Positions 3,767-31,734 of a DNA stretch of 35,938 nucleotides are shown in pieces. The notes beneath the pieces are model-generated. The model was not told the origin of the DNA. It was given only the letters and a program-made list of their open reading frames with translations, and did no database searches. How positions within the stretch are numbered: position 1 is the stretch's first letter; each line of letters starts with the position of its first letter. This DNA is from Nitriliruptorales bacterium (GTDB lineage Bacteria > Actinomycetota > Nitriliruptoria > Euzebyales > JAHELV01). Location: positions 17,532 to 53,469 of the forward strand of contig JAHELV010000007.1 in assembly GCA_024644015.1 (NCBI GenBank), read 5' to 3'. Both the position numbers and the translations under genes were made by a program.

Positions 3767-5899
3767 TCAGCAGCGGATCTTTGTGCCTCCACCCGGATAG
3801 CTGCAGCGATCCCGGACGACACCGGAGGCCTTCTTGAGTGTGGCGCGGTCGCCACCGTTGTTCCACACGTACCGCCGGCGGTTCCAGAACAGGTCGTTGC
3901 TGTCGTTGGTGCCCCTGCCGGTGTGTATGCGCACGTAACCGCCGGCACGGAGCCTGAAGCCCTGTGGGATCTTGTAGCGGTTGCCGGCCCTGTCCCGGAC
4001 GATCCAGTTGGAGATCTTGCGACCCTTCCCGCCGAAGTTGTGCAGGACGATCATCTCTTTGTTCAGGTGCGCGTTCTTGCGGGTGTCCTTGCCCGGCGGG
4101 TTGTAGACGATCCGGTAGAACTCGATCTTGGGGGCTGGTGCAGGGGCTGGCGGAGGGTCGACCGGTGCTCCGCCGATGTCGGGTGCGGTGATCTCGAAGA
4201 TCTTGCCGTCGTTCTCGGTCGGGTCCGGGCCGTTGTCGATCGCGCGGTCGACGATCCACAGGTTCATCTGGCCGCTGCCGTTGCTCGCCGGCGCCACCGC
4301 CAACCCGGAGATGTACTTCATCGCGCTGACCGGCGCGGAGATGGTCCGCACCAGCGTCCCGTCGTGGGTGACCTCAAAGATCTGCTTGGTCGTGCGGGCA
4401 CCCACGTACAGGGTGCGCCGCTCCGCGTTCGACGTCATACCCTCGAAGTCGGTCGGACCCAGATGGCTGATGTCGAAGTGCGTCACCGAGTCGTTGCCGT
4501 TGCCAAAGACCCCGTCAACCGGATTGATCCGGTAGATCTCCCTCCCGACCCCGTCGAGGTAGAACAGATGCCCCGACACCGGGTCGAACTCGGGATCCTC
4601 GGTGTCGACATTTCCGAAGGGGGATATGTCGATCGCGGTGACGACGTCGTCCCGGGTGCCGTGCACACCGTCGGCGCCGCGCTTGACCACGAAGATCTTC
4701 CTCTTGTCGTCGTCGGAGACGAACAGCGTCTTCGTGGCGGCGTCATACCCGAGGCCCGTGGGCTCCCGCGAATAGTTGCTCGGCGCGTTCGGGCCGTACG
4801 TCGCGCCGGTCCCCACCACGCTGCCGGTGCGTGTCGAACGCCACAGATTGACGTTGTTCCAGCCGGCACCCGTCGTCTCGTCGACCTCCGAATCGGCCAC
4901 CACCAACTCGTCGGACGCAGGCATCCACACGATCCCCGAAGGATCCGGCGACGCCGGACTCCACGACGACGTCTGCACCGTACGGACCAACGTCGCGGTG
5001 TCCACCGGCGCCGCCGGCGCAACCACCGCCGCAAGCGACACCTCCGTCACACCACCAAACGTCGACGCGCCACCCGCATCAGCGACGTACAAGTTCACAT
5101 CCCCCGGATCGTCGGTCGGGTCGGTGCTCGGCGCGAACGTCATCGCAACCGGAGCCGACAACTCGGTCGACGCCACACTGAAACGCTTCTGCACAGCACC
5201 GTCGAGATCCACCGCGTCGACACGATCCCGGTCCGGATCCATCACATACAACAGATCGTCGGTGGCATTGAACGCAATCAGCCGGTCCGCGTCACTCGGC
5301 GCAAGCGGCACCTGCTCCGCCGCACCCCCACCGTCCTGCCCGGCCACGACCGCAACAGAATCCGCACCCTCCTCCAGAACCAACCAGCTGTCGGTCTGCG
5401 GGTCGAACGTCGCGCTCTGCGGCGCCTCCAACTGCAACCCGTCGATCGCCACACGCTCGGCCGCCGGCCTCCGAGCATCCAAAGCGGCACCCGACACCTG
5501 CACCTGCTCACCACCGTCGACCGCGGTCAGCTCACCCTGCGCCGCATCAAACGCCAACGTCTGCGGGTCCGACAGCTCCGGCAGCGTGAACGCCCCCCGC
5601 CGCTGCTCATCGGGACCGAGCCGCAACACCGGCGTCGCGCCAGCCTCATCCCCAGCCACAAGGAACTCGCGGCGCGCCGGGTCATACGCCAACCCGGCCG
5701 GATGCGCGACACCCAACTCGTTGGTCCAGACCGTCCGCACCTCCTGCGCCTCCAGCACCGGCACCGAACCCGCGGACGCCGCCGCCGCCCGCGGCGCGCC
5801 AACACCCACAAAGACCCCCGCAGCCCACACCACCAAGACCACACCAACCACCAACACCCGCCAGCCGGTCGCCCTCCCGCAACTGCCCACGTCTGCCAT
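3767..5899 (-). CDS. Secreted beta-propeller protein with C-terminal lamin-tail domain (copy A)
   Basis: A 710-residue exported protein. The ATG at 5899 is chosen over an upstream in-frame start because GGAAGGA lies six bases before it and a signal peptide follows directly (hydrophobic residues 14-32, Ala-rich cleavage region near 38-41). Residues 45-575 hold about ten repeats of a propeller type, each with a pattern such as GLAYDPARREFLVAGDE or LIAFNATDDLLYVMDPD; some carry Asp/Gly loops that could bind calcium (GVFGNGNDSVTHFD). A Pro/Ala linker leads to a lamin-tail (LTD) domain at about 590-710, beginning PKIEFYRIVYN and ending in a likely disulfide pair. Residues 1-578 are identical to the neighbouring copy B; the C terminus is unrelated. 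Function unknown; an envelope or extracellular binding or hydrolytic role is inference. Confidence 0.85.
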   Translation of the reverse strand: MADVGSCGRATGWRVLVVGVVLVVWAAGVFVGVGAPRAAAASAGSVPVLEAQEVRTVWTNELGVAHPAGLAYDPARREFLVAGDEAGATPVLRLGPDEQRRGAFTLPELSDPQTLAFDAAQGELTAVDGGEQVQVSGAALDARRPAAERVAIDGLQLEAPQSATFDPQTDSWLVLEEGADSVAVVAGQDGGGAAEQVPLAPSDADRLIAFNATDDLLYVMDPDRDRVDAVDLDGAVQKRFSVASTELSAPVAMTFAPSTDPTDDPGDVNLYVADAGGASTFGGVTEVSLAAVVAPAAPVDTATLVRTVQTSSWSPASPDPSGIVWMPASDELVVADSEVDETTGAGWNNVNLWRSTRTGSVVGTGATYGPNAPSNYSREPTGLGYDAATKTLFVSDDDKRKIFVVKRGADGVHGTRDDVVTAIDISPFGNVDTEDPEFDPVSGHLFYLDGVGREIYRINPVDGVFGNGNDSVTHFDISHLGPTDFEGMTSNAERRTLYVGARTTKQIFEVTHDGTLVRTISAPVSAMKYISGLAVAPASNGSGQMNLWIVDRAIDNGPDPTENDGKIFEITAPDIGGAPVDPPPAPAPAPKIEFYRIVYNPPGKDTRKNAHLNKEMIVLHNFGGKGRKISNWIVRDRAGNRYKIPQGFRLRAGGYVRIHTGRGTNDSNDLFWNRRRYVWNNGGDRATLKKASGVVRDRCSYPGGGTKIRC

Positions 5900-6064
5900 C
5901 TCGGTTCCTTCCAGCGCCTGCAACGAACGCGGGCGACGGCGTCGGGTCGCGGCGGGAACGACGGACACGTGGGTCGTGTCAGCATGCGCTGACGCGGTCA
6001 CACCAGACCATCCCGATGCCAAGCACGGCCCCGGTTCCCGCCAAGGCCCAGATATGGATGCTGC
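4164..6064. repeat. Direct repeat unit A, 1,901 bp
   Basis: This segment recurs in the same orientation at 8554-10454, a constant offset of 4,390 bp. I saw no mismatch when reading the two, and translations in several overlapping frames agree throughout. The left edge falls in the codons after DIGG of the propeller protein, at the border between propeller and C-terminal domain. The right edge lies 165 bp upstream of the start codon. Homologous recombination between the units would delete the interval with ldcA and the EamA remnant. Confidence 0.95.
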
Positions 6065-6221
6065 CGCAACTTATACGCTAGAACCAACCGGCCGACATAC
6101 CAAATCTGCGGTAGTTCTCGCTTCCGAGGCTCAACCGCCGCCCGCGAGCTGACGAAGGTCCCGTTTGCGAGCAACATGCCTGCTCATCTGCCTCTGACCG
6201 CGCGGCCATCTTCAGGACGCG
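5900..6221. other. 322-bp spacer between propeller gene A and ldcA
   Basis: The part nearest the gene (to 6064) belongs to the perfect repeat. Beyond it, 6065-6120 is similar but clearly diverged from 10455-10511: on the minus strand both contain AGAAC, TACCG, GGTAT and GCGTATAA in the same order and nearly the same spacing. GTATAA is a plausible -10 element about 170 bp before the start codon, but no convincing -35 box is seen. The remainder (6121-6221) shows no gene or clear structure; it follows the ldcA stop. Confidence 0.5.
5906..5912 (-). promoter_or_regulatory. Ribosome-binding site that fixes the start of propeller gene A
   Basis: On the minus strand GGAAGGA stands six bases before ATG 5899. 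It is the main reason to reject the 41-codon in-frame extension upstream, which would bury the signal peptide. The identical site occurs before the second copy at 10296-10302. Confidence 0.8.
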
Positions 6222-7589: not shown

Positions 7590-10289
7590 TTATCCGCCGG
7601 ACGTCACCGGGGCGAGGATGATGGTGAAGGCGCTACGACGGTTCTCCAGTGTGCTGCTGGATCCGCTCGCAGTGGACGTGCCCACCGCCCCTGCGACAGC
7701 CTTCACGTGATCAGCCGCCAGCACACGGTTGCGATCGCTGTTGGAGTGACCCACCTGCTCCGTCCAGCGTTCGGTCACTCCCGCCGGCACCACATTGAAC
7801 CCGACATCCGCGTCCGTCGCCGACACACCTCGCCAGCCCCACAGCCGCACGACTCTCGTGTCGTTGACGCTCGACGTCGCGTTGGGTGCGACGAGGGCCG
7901 CGGTGTCGACCGCCGACGCCGCCCATGCGTTGATCGGTGACTGCGGATCGACACCGGCGTAGGCACCGATGCCACCGGCCATCCGTCCGGCGTCGTTGAC
8001 CTGATTGAAGGCGTACGAGGCGGGTTCGGAGCCCCCGGCGATCTTGTAGAACACGCTGTGGTGGGCCGTGCTGCGTGAGATCGTTGCGATCTCGGTCCAA
8101 CCGGACGGGGCGACCAGCTTGCTGGTGGTTCGGTGCCTGACCTGCGCGAGCAGCAGGTCACCTGCCTGCAGACCGGCCGGCCGGGCGATCGTCAACGTCG
8201 TGCCACTGGCCTTCGTGACGATCGCCGACGTGGCGGAGCGGAACGTCGGGGCGCCGGACGGTGGGCCACCGCCCCCGGTCACGGTCACGGTCACCGTGGC
8301 CACGTTGGAGCTGGCCTGCCCGTCGTTCGCGGTGTACGTGAAGGTGGTCGTTCCGGTGAAGCCCGCCGTCGGTGTGTACGTCACGGTCTGGCCAGGAGCG
8401 ACCTGCGTTGACCCGTTCGCCGGTTGGGTGAGGTTGGTCACCGTCAAGGCATCTCCGTCAGGATCGGAGTCGTTCGCCAGGACAGGCACGGTGACGGGCA
8501 CGCCCGCGGACGTCGAAGCCGAATCATTCACCGCCACCGGCGCACGGTTGGCGGGTGCTCCGCCGATGTCGGGTGCGGTGATCTCGAAGATCTTGCCGTC
8601 GTTCTCGGTCGGGTCCGGGCCGTTGTCGATCGCGCGGTCGACGATCCACAGGTTCATCTGGCCGCTGCCGTTGCTCGCCGGCGCCACCGCCAACCCGGAG
8701 ATGTACTTCATCGCGCTGACCGGCGCGGAGATGGTCCGCACCAGCGTCCCGTCGTGGGTGACCTCAAAGATCTGCTTGGTCGTGCGGGCACCCACGTACA
8801 GGGTGCGCCGCTCCGCGTTCGACGTCATACCCTCGAAGTCGGTCGGACCCAGATGGCTGATGTCGAAGTGCGTCACCGAGTCGTTGCCGTTGCCAAAGAC
8901 CCCGTCAACCGGATTGATCCGGTAGATCTCCCTCCCGACCCCGTCGAGGTAGAACAGATGCCCCGACACCGGGTCGAACTCGGGATCCTCGGTGTCGACA
9001 TTTCCGAAGGGGGATATGTCGATCGCGGTGACGACGTCGTCCCGGGTGCCGTGCACACCGTCGGCGCCGCGCTTGACCACGAAGATCTTCCTCTTGTCGT
9101 CGTCGGAGACGAACAGCGTCTTCGTGGCGGCGTCATACCCGAGGCCCGTGGGCTCCCGCGAATAGTTGCTCGGCGCGTTCGGGCCGTACGTCGCGCCGGT
9201 CCCCACCACGCTGCCGGTGCGTGTCGAACGCCACAGATTGACGTTGTTCCAGCCGGCACCCGTCGTCTCGTCGACCTCCGAATCGGCCACCACCAACTCG
9301 TCGGACGCAGGCATCCACACGATCCCCGAAGGATCCGGCGACGCCGGACTCCACGACGACGTCTGCACCGTACGGACCAACGTCGCGGTGTCCACCGGCG
9401 CCGCCGGCGCAACCACCGCCGCAAGCGACACCTCCGTCACACCACCAAACGTCGACGCGCCACCCGCATCAGCGACGTACAAGTTCACATCCCCCGGATC
9501 GTCGGTCGGGTCGGTGCTCGGCGCGAACGTCATCGCAACCGGAGCCGACAACTCGGTCGACGCCACACTGAAACGCTTCTGCACAGCACCGTCGAGATCC
9601 ACCGCGTCGACACGATCCCGGTCCGGATCCATCACATACAACAGATCGTCGGTGGCATTGAACGCAATCAGCCGGTCCGCGTCACTCGGCGCAAGCGGCA
9701 CCTGCTCCGCCGCACCCCCACCGTCCTGCCCGGCCACGACCGCAACAGAATCCGCACCCTCCTCCAGAACCAACCAGCTGTCGGTCTGCGGGTCGAACGT
9801 CGCGCTCTGCGGCGCCTCCAACTGCAACCCGTCGATCGCCACACGCTCGGCCGCCGGCCTCCGAGCATCCAAAGCGGCACCCGACACCTGCACCTGCTCA
9901 CCACCGTCGACCGCGGTCAGCTCACCCTGCGCCGCATCAAACGCCAACGTCTGCGGGTCCGACAGCTCCGGCAGCGTGAACGCCCCCCGCCGCTGCTCAT
10001 CGGGACCGAGCCGCAACACCGGCGTCGCGCCAGCCTCATCCCCAGCCACAAGGAACTCGCGGCGCGCCGGGTCATACGCCAACCCGGCCGGATGCGCGAC
10101 ACCCAACTCGTTGGTCCAGACCGTCCGCACCTCCTGCGCCTCCAGCACCGGCACCGAACCCGCGGACGCCGCCGCCGCCCGCGGCGCGCCAACACCCACA
10201 AAGACCCCCGCAGCCCACACCACCAAGACCACACCAACCACCAACACCCGCCAGCCGGTCGCCCTCCCGCAACTGCCCACGTCTGCCAT
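7590..10289 (-). CDS. Secreted beta-propeller protein with Ig-like and unknown C-terminal domain (copy B)
   Basis: An 899-residue exported protein whose first 578 residues, including signal peptide and propeller, are identical to copy A; start and ribosome-binding site are the same relative to the repeat. After DIGGAP the sequences part. Residues about 580-680 form a cadherin-like/bacterial Ig-type repeat (RAPVAVNDSASTSAG, VLANDSDPDGDALTV, YTPTAGFTGTTTFTYTANDG) ending in a Gly/Pro linker. Residues about 685-899 form a beta-rich domain of a kind found at the ends of actinobacterial surface proteins (GDLLLAQVRHRTTS, GWTEIATIS, GGIGAYAGVDPQSPI); I cannot name its function. The Ig-type repeat suggests an extended, surface-exposed or adhesive protein. 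It is followed at once by the truncated transporter gene, so its 3' end lies at an old rearrangement junction. Confidence 0.85.
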   Translation of the reverse strand: MADVGSCGRATGWRVLVVGVVLVVWAAGVFVGVGAPRAAAASAGSVPVLEAQEVRTVWTNELGVAHPAGLAYDPARREFLVAGDEAGATPVLRLGPDEQRRGAFTLPELSDPQTLAFDAAQGELTAVDGGEQVQVSGAALDARRPAAERVAIDGLQLEAPQSATFDPQTDSWLVLEEGADSVAVVAGQDGGGAAEQVPLAPSDADRLIAFNATDDLLYVMDPDRDRVDAVDLDGAVQKRFSVASTELSAPVAMTFAPSTDPTDDPGDVNLYVADAGGASTFGGVTEVSLAAVVAPAAPVDTATLVRTVQTSSWSPASPDPSGIVWMPASDELVVADSEVDETTGAGWNNVNLWRSTRTGSVVGTGATYGPNAPSNYSREPTGLGYDAATKTLFVSDDDKRKIFVVKRGADGVHGTRDDVVTAIDISPFGNVDTEDPEFDPVSGHLFYLDGVGREIYRINPVDGVFGNGNDSVTHFDISHLGPTDFEGMTSNAERRTLYVGARTTKQIFEVTHDGTLVRTISAPVSAMKYISGLAVAPASNGSGQMNLWIVDRAIDNGPDPTENDGKIFEITAPDIGGAPANRAPVAVNDSASTSAGVPVTVPVLANDSDPDGDALTVTNLTQPANGSTQVAPGQTVTYTPTAGFTGTTTFTYTANDGQASSNVATVTVTVTGGGGPPSGAPTFRSATSAIVTKASGTTLTIARPAGLQAGDLLLAQVRHRTTSKLVAPSGWTEIATISRSTAHHSVFYKIAGGSEPASYAFNQVNDAGRMAGGIGAYAGVDPQSPINAWAASAVDTAALVAPNATSSVNDTRVVRLWGWRGVSATDADVGFNVVPAGVTERWTEQVGHSNSDRNRVLAADHVKAVAGAVGTSTASGSSSTLENRRSAFTIILAPVTSGG

Positions 10290-10454
10290 CTCGGTTCCTT
10301 CCAGCGCCTGCAACGAACGCGGGCGACGGCGTCGGGTCGCGGCGGGAACGACGGACACGTGGGTCGTGTCAGCATGCGCTGACGCGGTCACACCAGACCA
10401 TCCCGATGCCAAGCACGGCCCCGGTTCCCGCCAAGGCCCAGATATGGATGCTGC
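8554..10454. repeat. Direct repeat unit B, 1,901 bp
   Basis: Second copy of the segment at 4164-6064, same orientation and without observed mismatch. The left edge is at the propeller/C-terminal-domain border. The right edge is 165 bp upstream of the start codon, after which the two loci remain similar but differ at many positions. That pattern fits sequence exchange between old paralogues rather than a fresh whole-gene duplication. Confidence 0.95.
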
Positions 10455-10617
10455 GGCCAGTTATACGCGCAGAGCGACTCGCCGGATATACCTGATTCAC
10501 GGTAGGTTCTGGTGTTCGACGATGAACGACGACAGCTCGCCAGGTTCACCGACGTCGCCCAGCACCCGTCGGACGACACCGCCACGATCACCCTGCCGAC
10601 TCGCTACTGGTGGGGTG
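10290..10617. other. 328-bp spacer between dnaE and propeller gene B
   Basis: Positions 10290-10454 are part of the perfect repeat and contain the ribosome-binding site at 10296-10302. Positions 10455-10511 hold the diverged counterpart of the upstream region of copy A, with GCGTATAA on the minus strand as a possible -10 element. The remaining hundred bases up to the dnaE stop have a coding-like composition in one plus frame, but no gene I can support. Confidence 0.5.
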
Positions 10618-27616: not shown

Positions 27617-29017
27617 TTACCCACGCACACCTCGCAGTCGCTCCAACGCCACCGGACCAACCTCGGTGATGTCGCCGGCGCCGAGCGTCAAGACCAGATC
27701 ACCCGACCGCACCAGCTCGACAAGCTGGGGTGGCACGTCCACAACCGACGGCACGTAGTGCACCTCCGTTCCCGCTGCGGAAGCTGCGTCGGCGACGAGC
27801 TGCCCTGTCACACCGGCGACGGGACGCTCCCCTGCGCTGTACACGTCGGTGACGACGACGACGTCGGCGCCGGCCAGTGCGGCACCCAGCTCGGCCCCCA
27901 TCGCCGCGGTCCTGCTGAACCGGTGTGGCTGGAACACCGCGATCACGCGCCCGTCGGGCGCTGTCTGGTGCGCTGCGGCGAGCGTCGCACGCAGCTCGGC
28001 GGGGTGATGGCCGTAGTCGTCGACGACGGTGACGCCGCCGGCCGAACCGAGGCGTTCGAAGCGGCGGTTCGCGCCCGCGAAGATCGCCAGGCCACGGCGA
28101 ATCGCGTCCCAGTCGACCCCTGCGTGCACGCTGGCAAGTGCTGCGGCTGCCGCGTTCAACACGCTGTGCCGGCCCGGCAGGCTGATCTCGAACTGACCGG
28201 CATCCGCGTCCTTGTGGACGAGTCCGAACCGGGCTCCGTACGGATGCAGCGCGACATCGACGATCCGCAGCGTCGCGTCGGCGTGCTCGCCATAGGTTTC
28301 GATCACGCCGCCGACATCGGGCAGCACCCGTCGCACGCCCTCGTCATCGAGGCAGACGACCGCGATGCCGCCCGGCCGCCGTCGCTCGAGGAACGCGACG
28401 AACGTGCGGTCCACGGCGGCGAGGTCGGGAAACTCGTCATGGTGGTCGAGGTCGACGTTGGTCACGATCGCGATGTTCGGCTCGTACACGAGGAACGACG
28501 AGTCCGATTCGTCGGCCTCGGCGACGAACCAACGGCCGGTGCCGTGGTGTGCACTGGTGCCCGCATCGTGCAGCGTGCCGCCGATCGCGAACGACGGATC
28601 GAGTCCGCCGGTCTGCAGGCACACCGCGACCATCGACGTCGTCGTGGTCTTGCCATGCGTGCCCGCCACGTGCAACTGGTCGTGGTCGACCATCAACGCG
28701 GCAAGCAGCTCGGCCCGCCGTAGCACGGGCAGACCCAGCTCCTGCGCCCTGCGCAGCTCCTTGTTGCCCGGCGGGATCGCGGTCGACGCCACGACCAGCT
28801 CCGCGTCGTCCACAAGGTCCGCGTCGTGCCCGCTCTGGATCTCAGCGCCCATCGACCGCAGCGCCGTGATCGCCCTGCCCGCCCGCAGGTCGCTGCCGGT
28901 GACCGGGTGGCTGCGCTGCAGCAGGATCCACGCCAGGGCGCTCATGCCCGCGCCGCCGATGCCGATCAGATGCACCCGCATCCCGGGACGCAGCTTCGTC
29001 TGCAGTTCCGTCATCAT
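27617..29017 (-). CDS. murC: UDP-N-acetylmuramate-L-alanine ligase
   Basis: Cytoplasmic ATP-dependent ligase adding L-Ala to UDP-MurNAc, first of the stem-peptide ligases. The UDP-binding N-terminal part has VHLIGIGGAGMSALAWILLQ, the ATP loop GTHGKTTTTSM is at about residue 110, followed by DESDSSF and the central NVDLDHHDEF, and the C-terminal domain contains DDYGHHPAELRATL and FQPHRFSRT. Length 466 residues. The start at 29017 is supported by an overlapping stop/start (TGATG) with a mini-ORF in the preceding tandem repeat; a second ATG follows directly at 29014. murG, usually just upstream, is missing. Confidence 0.97.
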   Translation of the reverse strand: MMTELQTKLRPGMRVHLIGIGGAGMSALAWILLQRSHPVTGSDLRAGRAITALRSMGAEIQSGHDADLVDDAELVVASTAIPPGNKELRRAQELGLPVLRRAELLAALMVDHDQLHVAGTHGKTTTTSMVAVCLQTGGLDPSFAIGGTLHDAGTSAHHGTGRWFVAEADESDSSFLVYEPNIAIVTNVDLDHHDEFPDLAAVDRTFVAFLERRRPGGIAVVCLDDEGVRRVLPDVGGVIETYGEHADATLRIVDVALHPYGARFGLVHKDADAGQFEISLPGRHSVLNAAAAALASVHAGVDWDAIRRGLAIFAGANRRFERLGSAGGVTVVDDYGHHPAELRATLAAAHQTAPDGRVIAVFQPHRFSRTAAMGAELGAALAGADVVVVTDVYSAGERPVAGVTGQLVADAASAAGTEVHYVPSVVDVPPQLVELVRSGDLVLTLGAGDITEVGPVALERLRGVRG

Positions 29018-29052
29018 CAAGCCCTACCGCTGTCGCTACTTGAGGTCAGCAT
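29017..29052 (-). CDS. 11-residue mini-ORF 2, overlapping the murC start
   Basis: Eleven codons encoding MLTSSSDSGRA, then TGA, whose last base is the first base of the murC ATG (TGATG). Its own ATG overlaps the stop of mini-ORF 1 in the same way. It is a copy of the end of ftsW. Translation is not shown; the layout suggests reinitiation. Confidence 0.35.
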   Translation of the reverse strand: MLTSSSDSGRA

Positions 29053-29087
29053 CAAGCCCTACCGCTGTCGCTACTTGAGGTCAGCAT
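29052..29087 (-). CDS. 11-residue mini-ORF 1, overlapping the ftsW stop
   Basis: Identical in sequence to mini-ORF 2. The ATG shares one base with the ftsW stop codon (TGATG), and the TGA shares one with the next ATG. The last six residues SDSGRA equal the FtsW C terminus. No separate ribosome-binding site is obvious apart from a weak TAGGG. Confidence 0.35.
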   Translation of the reverse strand: MLTSSSDSGRA

Positions 29088-30325
29088 CAAGCCCTACCGC
29101 TGTCGCTCTCGGATCTGCGGCCGCCTGCTCGCTCTCGGGTCTGCGGCCGCGTATGACGCGCGATGGACAGCAGCAGGCCCGCGCTGACCATCGTGATCAC
29201 CAGGGACGTCCCGCCGAAGCTGACGAAGGGTAACGTCACGCCCGTGACCGGCAGCAGGCCGACCACGCTGCCCATGTTGATTGCTGCCTGGAGCAGGATG
29301 CCGGCGACGAGCCCCGCCGCGAGCAGACGACCGAACGAGTCGGGAGCCAGAATCGCGATCCGCAGGCCGACGACGGCGATGACAACGTACAGCGCCAGCA
29401 CCAACAGGACACCCAGCAGCCCCAGCTCCTCGCCGATGATCGCGAAGATGAAGTCCGTGTGGGCGTTGGGCAGATACAGCCACTTGCCCCGTCCGTCGCC
29501 GAGACCGGTGCCCAGCCAGCCGCCGCTGCCGAGCGCGTAGTACCCCTGAAGCGTCTGATAACCGTACACCGCCGCCGACGAGTTCGGATCGAGCCAAGCG
29601 CCGAACCGGCCCATGCGGAACCCCGCGGACGCGATCCCCAGGCCGACCAGCCCAGCGCCGGCGATGACACTCGTGACCAGCCAGCGGGTCGGCAGTCCGG
29701 CGACATACAGCATCACGACGCCGATCGCGACGAGCAACGCCGCTGTCTCGAGGTCGGGCTCGGCCATCACCAGCACCGCGACCACGGCCAGCATCGGTAG
29801 TGTCGGAACCAGCAGCGCGCGCAGATCGCCGGACTTGATCCGACCCCATGAGCGCGCGAGCGCGTCGGCGCAGAACAGGGGCACAGCCAGCTTCAACAGC
29901 TCGGCCGGCTGGAACACCAGCGGTTCCATCCCCAACCAGCGGCGTGCACCCGACCGCTCGATGCCGGCGGGTGTGACCACCACGACCGCCAGCAGGAGGG
30001 CGACGACAACCACCACACGGACGTACGGGCGCCAGACGCGATAGTCACGGAGGGCGACCGCGATCGTCACCGGGATGCCCAACAGGCACCACAGCAGCTG
30101 CCGGCGGAAGATGCGGAACGCGTCGCCCGCAAGAGCTGACTGCACGAATGACGCTGAGAACGTCATCAGCAGCCCGAGCAGGATGAGCACCACCACCGTC
30201 GCGGCCAGCACACCGAACAGCGTGTTGCTCTCGCCCGACGCAGGCGGCACGACCATCGCGCGTAGGCGGCCCTGCAGCGAGGACGGTGAGCGCGCCGTGC
30301 GTCGCGAGCGGCTGACCTGCGTCAT
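29087..30325 (-). CDS. ftsW: Septal peptidoglycan polymerase FtsW
   Basis: SEDS-family lipid II polymerase working with the septal transpeptidase; 412 residues, about ten hydrophobic segments. Conserved points include GARRWLG, FQPAELLKLAVP, the catalytic-Asp motif MAEPDLETA, GYQTLQGYYALGSGGWLGTGLG, FIFAIIGEELGLLG and the closing GVTLPFVSFGGTSL. The ATG at 30325 overlaps the murD stop (ATGA); upstream in-frame codons lie in murD. The last codons, encoding SDSGRA, are those repeated in the adjacent tandem repeat, which has displaced this stop from murC by 70 bp. No murG follows. Confidence 0.97.
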   Translation of the reverse strand: MTQVSRSRRTARSPSSLQGRLRAMVVPPASGESNTLFGVLAATVVVLILLGLLMTFSASFVQSALAGDAFRIFRRQLLWCLLGIPVTIAVALRDYRVWRPYVRVVVVVALLLAVVVVTPAGIERSGARRWLGMEPLVFQPAELLKLAVPLFCADALARSWGRIKSGDLRALLVPTLPMLAVVAVLVMAEPDLETAALLVAIGVVMLYVAGLPTRWLVTSVIAGAGLVGLGIASAGFRMGRFGAWLDPNSSAAVYGYQTLQGYYALGSGGWLGTGLGDGRGKWLYLPNAHTDFIFAIIGEELGLLGVLLVLALYVVIAVVGLRIAILAPDSFGRLLAAGLVAGILLQAAINMGSVVGLLPVTGVTLPFVSFGGTSLVITMVSAGLLLSIARHTRPQTRERAGGRRSESDSGRA

Positions 30326-31734
30326 CGCGCGCTCCGACCCACGGTGGCACCAGCGCCGACCAGCTCGCGGAAGCGGTCCCCGCGGGCGGCATAATCGACG
30401 AACTGGTCCATCGACGCGCACGCTGGTGCCAGAAGCACGACGTCACCGGACCGGACGCGGTCGAACGCAACGGCGACCGCGGTCTCGAGGTTGCCGGCCT
30501 CGACGGTCTCGACGCCGTGGGTACGGGTCAGGTCTGCCAGCTGGGACCCCGCCTCCCCGATGGTCACCGCCAATCGCACGCGGCCGGCGACGTCGGCGGC
30601 GAGCGGGTCGAACGACACGCCCTTGCTCAGGCCGCCCGCGATCCACACGACCGAGTCGAACGACCGCAGCGCCGCCGCTGCCGCGTGCGGGTTCGTCGCC
30701 TTGGAGTCGTTGACCCATCGCACGCCGCCGCGCTCGGCGACCACTTCGAGCCGGTGGGCGCCGACCCGCGCTTCCGACAGTGGGCGACCGAGCCGGGCGG
30801 GGGCAGCGCCCGCCACGATCGCCGCGGCGACCGCTGCAGCGACGTTGGCGACGTTGTGTGATCCTCGAACGCCGAGTGCGTCGACCCCGACGATCGGCGT
30901 CGGCTGCGTGCCCGTGATGCGCTCGACCACCACGCCGTCCAGCACGCCGACGCCGTCCCTCGGCGGCTCGCCGATCGTGAACGGGGCCCATCCCGCGGGC
31001 GGCGGATGATCAGCGACCAGCCGCGCACAGCCGTCGTCGTCGAGGTTGCCGACAGCCCAGTCGCAACCTCGCAGCCCGTAGCCGCCGGATGACCGCTGGC
31101 CGCGCCAGATGCGGGCCTTGGCCGCCGCGTAGGCGCGGCGGTCCCCGTGCCAGTCGAGGTGATCGTCAGCCACGTTGAGAACGACGCCGACATCGGCGCG
31201 CAGCGTATGCGTGTAATGCAGCTGGAAGCTGGAAAGCTCGGCAACGGCCAGTGGCGGCGGAGCGCCGGTCAGCGCCGACAGGGGGCGGCCGATGTTGCCG
31301 ACCGCGGGCACATCCAGGCAGGCGGCAAGCAGTTCGGTGGTCGTCGTCTTGCCATTCGTGCCGGTCACCGCTACGAGGCGCGTGCGCCCATCGAGCAGCC
31401 TCCACGCCAGCTCAGGCTCACTCCAGATGTCCACACCGGCGTTCGCAGCGGCAAGGAGCACCGCCGCTGACGGCGTCAGCCCCGGGCTTGCGACGACCAC
31501 GTCGAGTGCACCCGCGGACAGCATTGCCACGGGATCGGCGATCACCTCGACCCGGCTCGACAGCTCGACGCGCCCGCGCTCGACCGCAGCCGGTGCCGCA
31601 TCGTGGACCATCACGCTCGCACCGGCCGTCGCTGCGGCCCGCGCGGCCGCGATGCCCGACACGCCCAACCCCGCCACGAGCACCCGCAGCGAGCGCAACG
31701 GAGCTGACGGGTCCTCGGCTCGCCGAGCACTCAC
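30322..31734 (-). CDS. murD: UDP-N-acetylmuramoyl-L-alanine-D-glutamate ligase
   Basis: Adds D-Glu to UDP-MurNAc-L-Ala using ATP; 470 residues. The N-terminal nucleotide-binding part begins RVLVAGLGVSGIAAARA, the ATP loop is VTGTNGKTTTTELL, followed by VGNIGRPL, ELSSFQLHYTHTLRAD and LNVADDHLDWHG, with the C-terminal NDSKATNPHAA and WIAGGLSKG. GTG 31734 overlaps the mraY stop (GTGA), fixing the start and suggesting coupling. The stop overlaps ftsW. Confidence 0.97.
   Translation of the reverse strand: MSARRAEDPSAPLRSLRVLVAGLGVSGIAAARAAATAGASVMVHDAAPAAVERGRVELSSRVEVIADPVAMLSAGALDVVVASPGLTPSAAVLLAAANAGVDIWSEPELAWRLLDGRTRLVAVTGTNGKTTTTELLAACLDVPAVGNIGRPLSALTGAPPPLAVAELSSFQLHYTHTLRADVGVVLNVADDHLDWHGDRRAYAAAKARIWRGQRSSGGYGLRGCDWAVGNLDDDGCARLVADHPPPAGWAPFTIGEPPRDGVGVLDGVVVERITGTQPTPIVGVDALGVRGSHNVANVAAAVAAAIVAGAAPARLGRPLSEARVGAHRLEVVAERGGVRWVNDSKATNPHAAAAALRSFDSVVWIAGGLSKGVSFDPLAADVAGRVRLAVTIGEAGSQLADLTRTHGVETVEAGNLETAVAVAFDRVRSGDVVLLAPACASMDQFVDYAARGDRFRELVGAGATVGRSAR

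Follow-up and report, generated by a model that had tools for sequence, protein, structure and literature searches.

The window analyzed here, a stretch of 35,938 nucleotides from contig JAHELV010000007.1 of a Nitriliruptorales bacterium, encodes murF, mraY, murD, ftsW, murC, and murB in the order of the dcw cluster, the identities of murF and mraY being taken from the list of open reading frames. The junction between ftsW and murC harbors by far the strongest tandem repeat found by TRF in the window (period 35, 98% matches, score 189; Table 1). Read on the minus strand, it has the layout ...GGTAGGGCT-TGATG-CTGACCTCAAGTAGCGACAGCGGTAGGGCT-TGATG-...-GGTAGGGCT-TGATG-ATGACGGAACTG, in which the ftsW stop codon, two identical 36-nt (11-codon) ORFs, and the murC start codon are joined via three TGATG overlaps; a second ATG at 29014 follows the murC start. 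Elsewhere in the window, a 1972-bp segment is duplicated in direct orientation with 98.8% identity (4149-6118 and 8539-10510), giving two large secreted-looking proteins of 751 and 940 amino acids that have most of their sequence in common and differ at the C-terminus.

Table 1. Features of the ftsW-murC junction (coordinates refer to the window).
Feature	Coordinates	Strand	Description	Basis
ftsW	29087..30421	(-)	last codons (SDSGRA*) lie within repeat unit 1	NCBIfam equivalog
ftsW stop codon	29089-29087	(-)		sequence
Tandem array	29010..29107	(-)	2.8 copies of the 35-bp unit AGCGACAGCGGTAGGGCTTGATGCTGACCTCAAGT	TRF
Repeat cores in the array	29092-29107, 29057-29072, 29022-29037	(-)		
Mini-ORF 1	29052..29087	(-)	MLTSSSDSGRA*; start overlaps the ftsW stop (TGATG)	
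Mini-ORF 2	29017..29052	(-)	MLTSSSDSGRA*, same as mini-ORF 1; TGATG overlap at each end	
murC	27617..29017	(-)	start ATG at 29017, in the last TGATG	NCBIfam equivalog
Two degenerate ~20-bp copies (GGCCGCAGAYCCGAGAGCGA)	29105..29149	(-)	within the ftsW 3' end	sequence

The three overlaps confirm the stop/start relay from ftsW via two mini-ORFs to murC that had been proposed in the preliminary description, and relays of this type also occur at other loci. The arithmetic proposed there holds as well: with a period of 2 mod 3, each unit adds one intact step. We infer from the sequence that the mini-ORFs are translated and that reinitiation carries ribosomes to murC. In addition, independent or partly independent initiation may occur at the unit starts, because each unit carries a weak Shine-Dalgarno-like AGGG 4 nt before its ATG (duplex -5.9 kcal/mol vs -12.0 kcal/mol for the consensus). 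A TAGGCA beside the ATG was considered as a -10 promoter element and dropped, because in other genera the bases downstream of TAG vary together with the stem (see below). The mini-ORFs had also been described as copies of the FtsW tail. The units and the tail do share SDSGRA; the direction is probably the opposite one, with the repeat having extended FtsW, because FtsW of three relatives from the same genus ends without this tail. The degenerate copies in the ftsW 3' end, whose kinship to the unit we infer, are possibly eroded repeat units.

Rather than being a device peculiar to ftsW-murC, the array represents one locus of a repeat family dispersed through the genome. Allowing up to two mismatches, the core AGCGACAGCGGTAGGG has 78 sites in the genome of the window (G000) compared with 11 for the reversed pattern, and 56, 61, and 33 sites in three genomes of the same genus (reversed controls 19, 16, and 16). 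A covariance model built from 46 units gave 98 matches in G000 at E <= 1 and 81, 68, and 35 matches in the three congeners at E <= 0.01. Across the class, matches are patchy in other genera (51, 29, 14, 12, 7, 6, 6, and 4, plus a few singles) and 46 of the 61 genomes searched with the model have none. In a phylum-wide sample, the family is nearly restricted to this class, and named carriers of the exact pattern are mostly Euzebyaceae, Nitriliruptorales, and unclassified Actinomycetota MAGs. Single exact stem-loop matches were also seen in contigs catalogued as viral in IMG/VR (L217-L222). Tandem arrays do arise by slippage, which would fit a purely local duplication at ftsW-murC; with about 98 matching sites elsewhere, this origin is refuted by the dispersed family. 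The same applies to an assembly artefact, the array being only 98 bp long, below typical short-read length, and containing no run of N. Both are extremely improbable.

The unit, 33-39 bp in length, is a hairpin whose stem, some 5-6 bp long, encloses the loop TCA(A/T/G)G(T/C)AGCG-N-CAGCGGTA; the loop of about 19 nt is conserved, while the stem covaries freely. Among 110 distinct units, 103 have stem pair 3, 103 have pair 4, and 74 have pair 5, where column composition alone predicts 59.8, 51.2, and 42.0, respectively. For 46 units (A1), 48 stem cells are changed on both sides vs 26.6 when shuffled (0/500), and slid controls all scored lower than the true stem for covariation. In other genera, the inner CC/GG pairs also change jointly (CGAC/GTCG, TCAC/GTGA, GCGC/GCGC). 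The stem of the ftsW-murC array itself is mismatched, with pair 3 broken (GACC/GGGC), and folding of a single unit from the window gives an alternative stem, TCAAGT/GCTTGA. At several sites of one congener (G001; L048, L052, L056), the repeat core is linked to another element, about 100 bp long, which has an inverted repeat of its own (GTCGTTGG...CCAACGAC).

The same stem-loop extends beyond the phylum. It is present in 38 of 201 Sphingomonadales genomes, where it is usually followed by an ACAAA-like stretch, with 3, 13, and 16 matches in Erythrobacter/Porphyrobacter genomes. The Erythrobacter/Porphyrobacter copies (L116, L117, L120, L187-L216) lie in ordinary intergenic DNA and not at DTGA stop/start overlaps; thus, the hairpin is older or more mobile than the DTGA habit. 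A loop conserved and a stem covarying across genera and phyla, together with a co-directional downstream gene at most sampled arrays, would fit a cis-regulatory RNA hairpin, in which a protein or RNA binds the loop and tandem copies tune translation or mRNA stability of the downstream gene in many operons. Against this reading, neither the window nor seven array loci had a match in Rfam, the junctions examined form no coherent regulon, sites are often empty in sibling species (see below), and the covariation could equally reflect processing of single-stranded DNA. Such a role is rather unlikely.

A short, palindromic, dispersed, and patchy repeat that contains GTAG could also belong to the REP elements that RAYT (Y1) transposases mobilize. 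However, a search for Y1_Tnp detected the positive-control genomes and gave no match in G000, its three congeners (G001-G003), or seven other carrier genomes, and the GTAG of the unit sits in the loop and first stem pairs instead of forming an unpaired tag outside the stem foot as in the GTAG REPs of PMC3733652. With the transposase absent from the carriers examined, this origin is mostly refuted and very improbable. The family resembles the REP/GTAG palindromes in being short, dispersed, hairpin-forming, patchy, and sometimes clustered; it differs in its conserved loop and variable stem, in having no RAYT, and in its sense orientation at gene starts, whereas REPs are found mainly downstream of genes (PMC3733652).

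The placement of many arrays follows a common plan, judged from gene calls made with a simple codon model trained on the window genes. The upstream gene stops at a TGA that is part of an ATGA or GTGA, with the first CCTCA located 3-6 nt further on, and the last core is followed, at a distance of 8 nt, by the next such tetranucleotide. In these DTGA-type arrays the unit reads M(T/S..)SSSDSGR.... Periods of 35 or 38 bp result in a relay of separate mini-ORFs and periods of 36 or 39 bp in one fused ORF; both reach the next gene, and in most DTGA-type arrays the ORF or ORFs span the whole distance between the stop of the upstream gene and the start of the downstream one. Relay arrays comprise two steps in the window and in L118, three in L125, which is then fused to aroA, three in L098 as read by eye, and four unit-length mini-ORFs plus a truncated one (4-5 steps) in L092. 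Fused ORFs are found in L079, L081, L090, and L142. Arrays L082, L088, L092, L127, L135, and L138 end with a half unit (CCTCAAGTAGCG) instead of a full one. Counted as repeats and not as independent arrays, DTGA sites have periods of 34 (2), 35 (9), 36 (9), 38 (2), and 39 (7), and other co-directional sites have periods of 33 (8), 34 (3), 35 (1), 36 (18), 38 (1), and 39 (1). In G000, several contig ends and stretches of roughly 100 N fall at arrays (L069, L070, L072, L075, L082, L083, L085, L088, L091, L094, L095, L097), whose copy numbers are uncertain and probably underestimated.

Where the upstream stop is a DTGA no more than 12 nt from the first unit, 17 of 20 gap-free arrays chain into the downstream frame. 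The controls of this test also came out high, with 2024/4000 shuffles (51%), 26/82 wrong frames (32%), and 598/2000 random deletions of one or two bases, and the test was therefore rejected as proof of a relay; the chaining supports, but does not prove, a maintained chain. Arrays also occur away from coupling sites, namely 21 of the 41 gap-free co-directional arrays and 20 arrays without co-directional flanks.

The three congeners were searched for sequences flanking six of the G000 arrays. At ftsW-murC, a bare ATGA is found in G003 and a bare GTGA in G001; in G002, two units are fused into the MurC N-terminus (MTERGRARQPSDSDSGRARIDD) without a relay. In G027, which belongs to another genus, a three-unit array directly follows ftsW and is fused to the N-terminus of MurG. 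The efp-nusB junction is empty in G003 (GGGCGTGACGAG, in the wider context ...ACGGGCGTGACGAGC...) and occupied in G000 (...ACGGGC-GTGA-(four units)-GTGACGCG...). A bare GTGA is present in all three congeners between the genes for an acyl-CoA dehydrogenase and a thioesterase and between tyrA and aroA, and in G001 between modB and modC, all of which carry an array in G000. Between tsaD and an acetyltransferase-like gene, G000 has two fused units with a period of 39, G002 two units with a period of 38 in a relay, G001 one degenerate unit, and G003 about three units. Hence, copy number and type of the arrays vary between species at orthologous sites. In a subset of arrays, such as those at efp-nusB and at the acyl-CoA dehydrogenase-thioesterase junction, DTGA is found at both ends of the insert. 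The parsimonious history would be an insertion into DTGA that re-created the overlap, followed by expansion, fusion, and decay; deletion is less likely at two loci because their sites are bare in all three congeners.

Further junctions with assignments from NCBIfam are argD-argF and gatC-gatA, besides efp-nusB and those of TsaD and an oligoribonuclease; tyrA-aroA, modB-modC, and the acyl-CoA dehydrogenase-thioesterase pair were assigned by reading the proteins. These genes are functionally unrelated, which argues against a coherent regulon as well as against a dcw-specific function. The preliminary description had regarded the array as a length-adjustable translational rheostat of the dcw operon; on this reading, the number of relay steps would be under selection and would adjust how much MurC is made per FtsW. 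The exact relay with its period of 2 mod 3 would suit such a control, and added steps could lower the output, as reinitiation is rarely fully efficient. A specificity for dcw is not supported, with the same element present at many unrelated operon junctions. The bare junctions in G001 and G003, the fusion in G002, and the weak AGGG, which may make the starts partly independent, also speak against an adjustable control, and this function is quite improbable.

Taken together, the ftsW-murC array is likely a locus of an apparently mobile stem-loop family, the insertions of which are tolerated since coupling is kept. A ribosome finishing the upstream gene would reinitiate on the mini-ORF or mini-ORFs and then be delivered to the downstream gene, and insertions as well as later changes in copy number would be tolerated because translational coupling persists. 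The array at ftsW-murC probably grew by slippage, its 5' unit probably being absorbed into FtsW and its stem partly decaying. Judged from the sequence, its effect on MurC is probably a modest attenuation or none. Points against this explanation are the weakness of the chaining test, the many arrays off coupling sites, the intergenic copies in Sphingomonadales, the failure to find a mobilizing enzyme, and the mismatched stem in the window. A bolder version, in which a cross-phylum mobile hairpin inserts into DTGA overlaps in one actinobacterial class by a new mechanism, with mRNA or single-stranded DNA at translated junctions as a possible route, and in which the relays of mini-ORFs have a measurable influence on the ratio of neighboring operon products, is clearly unlikely.

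Literature searches with the sequence motif returned unrelated papers only, apparently with primer tables; nothing was found on such repeats in Euzebya or Nitriliruptor, and no paper on VNTR copy number affecting expression. The arrays use the same overlaps as ordinary ATGA/TGATG coupling and differ from it by an interposed mobile repeat that re-creates the overlap. To our knowledge, the covarying hairpin sets the family apart from the mycobacterial interspersed repetitive units (MIRUs), with which it otherwise has much in common. As far as described in the accounts summarising Supply 1997 (PMC12548453, PMC4213456), MIRUs are dispersed, located at gene starts, and present in tandem copies; they contain a small ORF that overlaps the next gene by 4 nt and is coupled to it in this way. 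Likewise, the present family is dispersed in many genome copies, its arrays contain small ORFs overlapping both neighbors, a subset lies at DTGA stop/start overlaps with DTGA at both ends, and copy number varies, in this case between species. The senX3-regX3 MIRUs of 77 and 53 bp (PMC4213456) are 2 mod 3 like the units of 35 and 38 bp and follow the same relay arithmetic. Promoter activity has been reported from the senX3-regX3 MIRU region (PMC4213456), which cautions that any effect of copy number may instead be exerted on transcription. The present units are shorter (33-39 bp vs the 53/77/101-bp mycobacterial consensus), include fused variants of 36/39 bp, and occur in non-mycobacterial lineages, namely Nitriliruptoria-type Actinomycetota and Sphingomonadales. 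The family thus works like MIRUs and is not classed as MIRU, the two being set apart by unit length and lineage.

MIRUs have been portrayed as peculiar to mycobacteria, and the present repeats would be a separate family that preserves coupling by the same logic. A stem that covaries around an invariant loop suggests that the hairpin has a specific partner. Dozens of natural arrays with matched empty sibling sites would provide a natural test set for asking whether expression of the following gene is attenuated by reinitiation chains of one to five steps, and by what means such elements reach stop/start overlaps when no transposase is evident.
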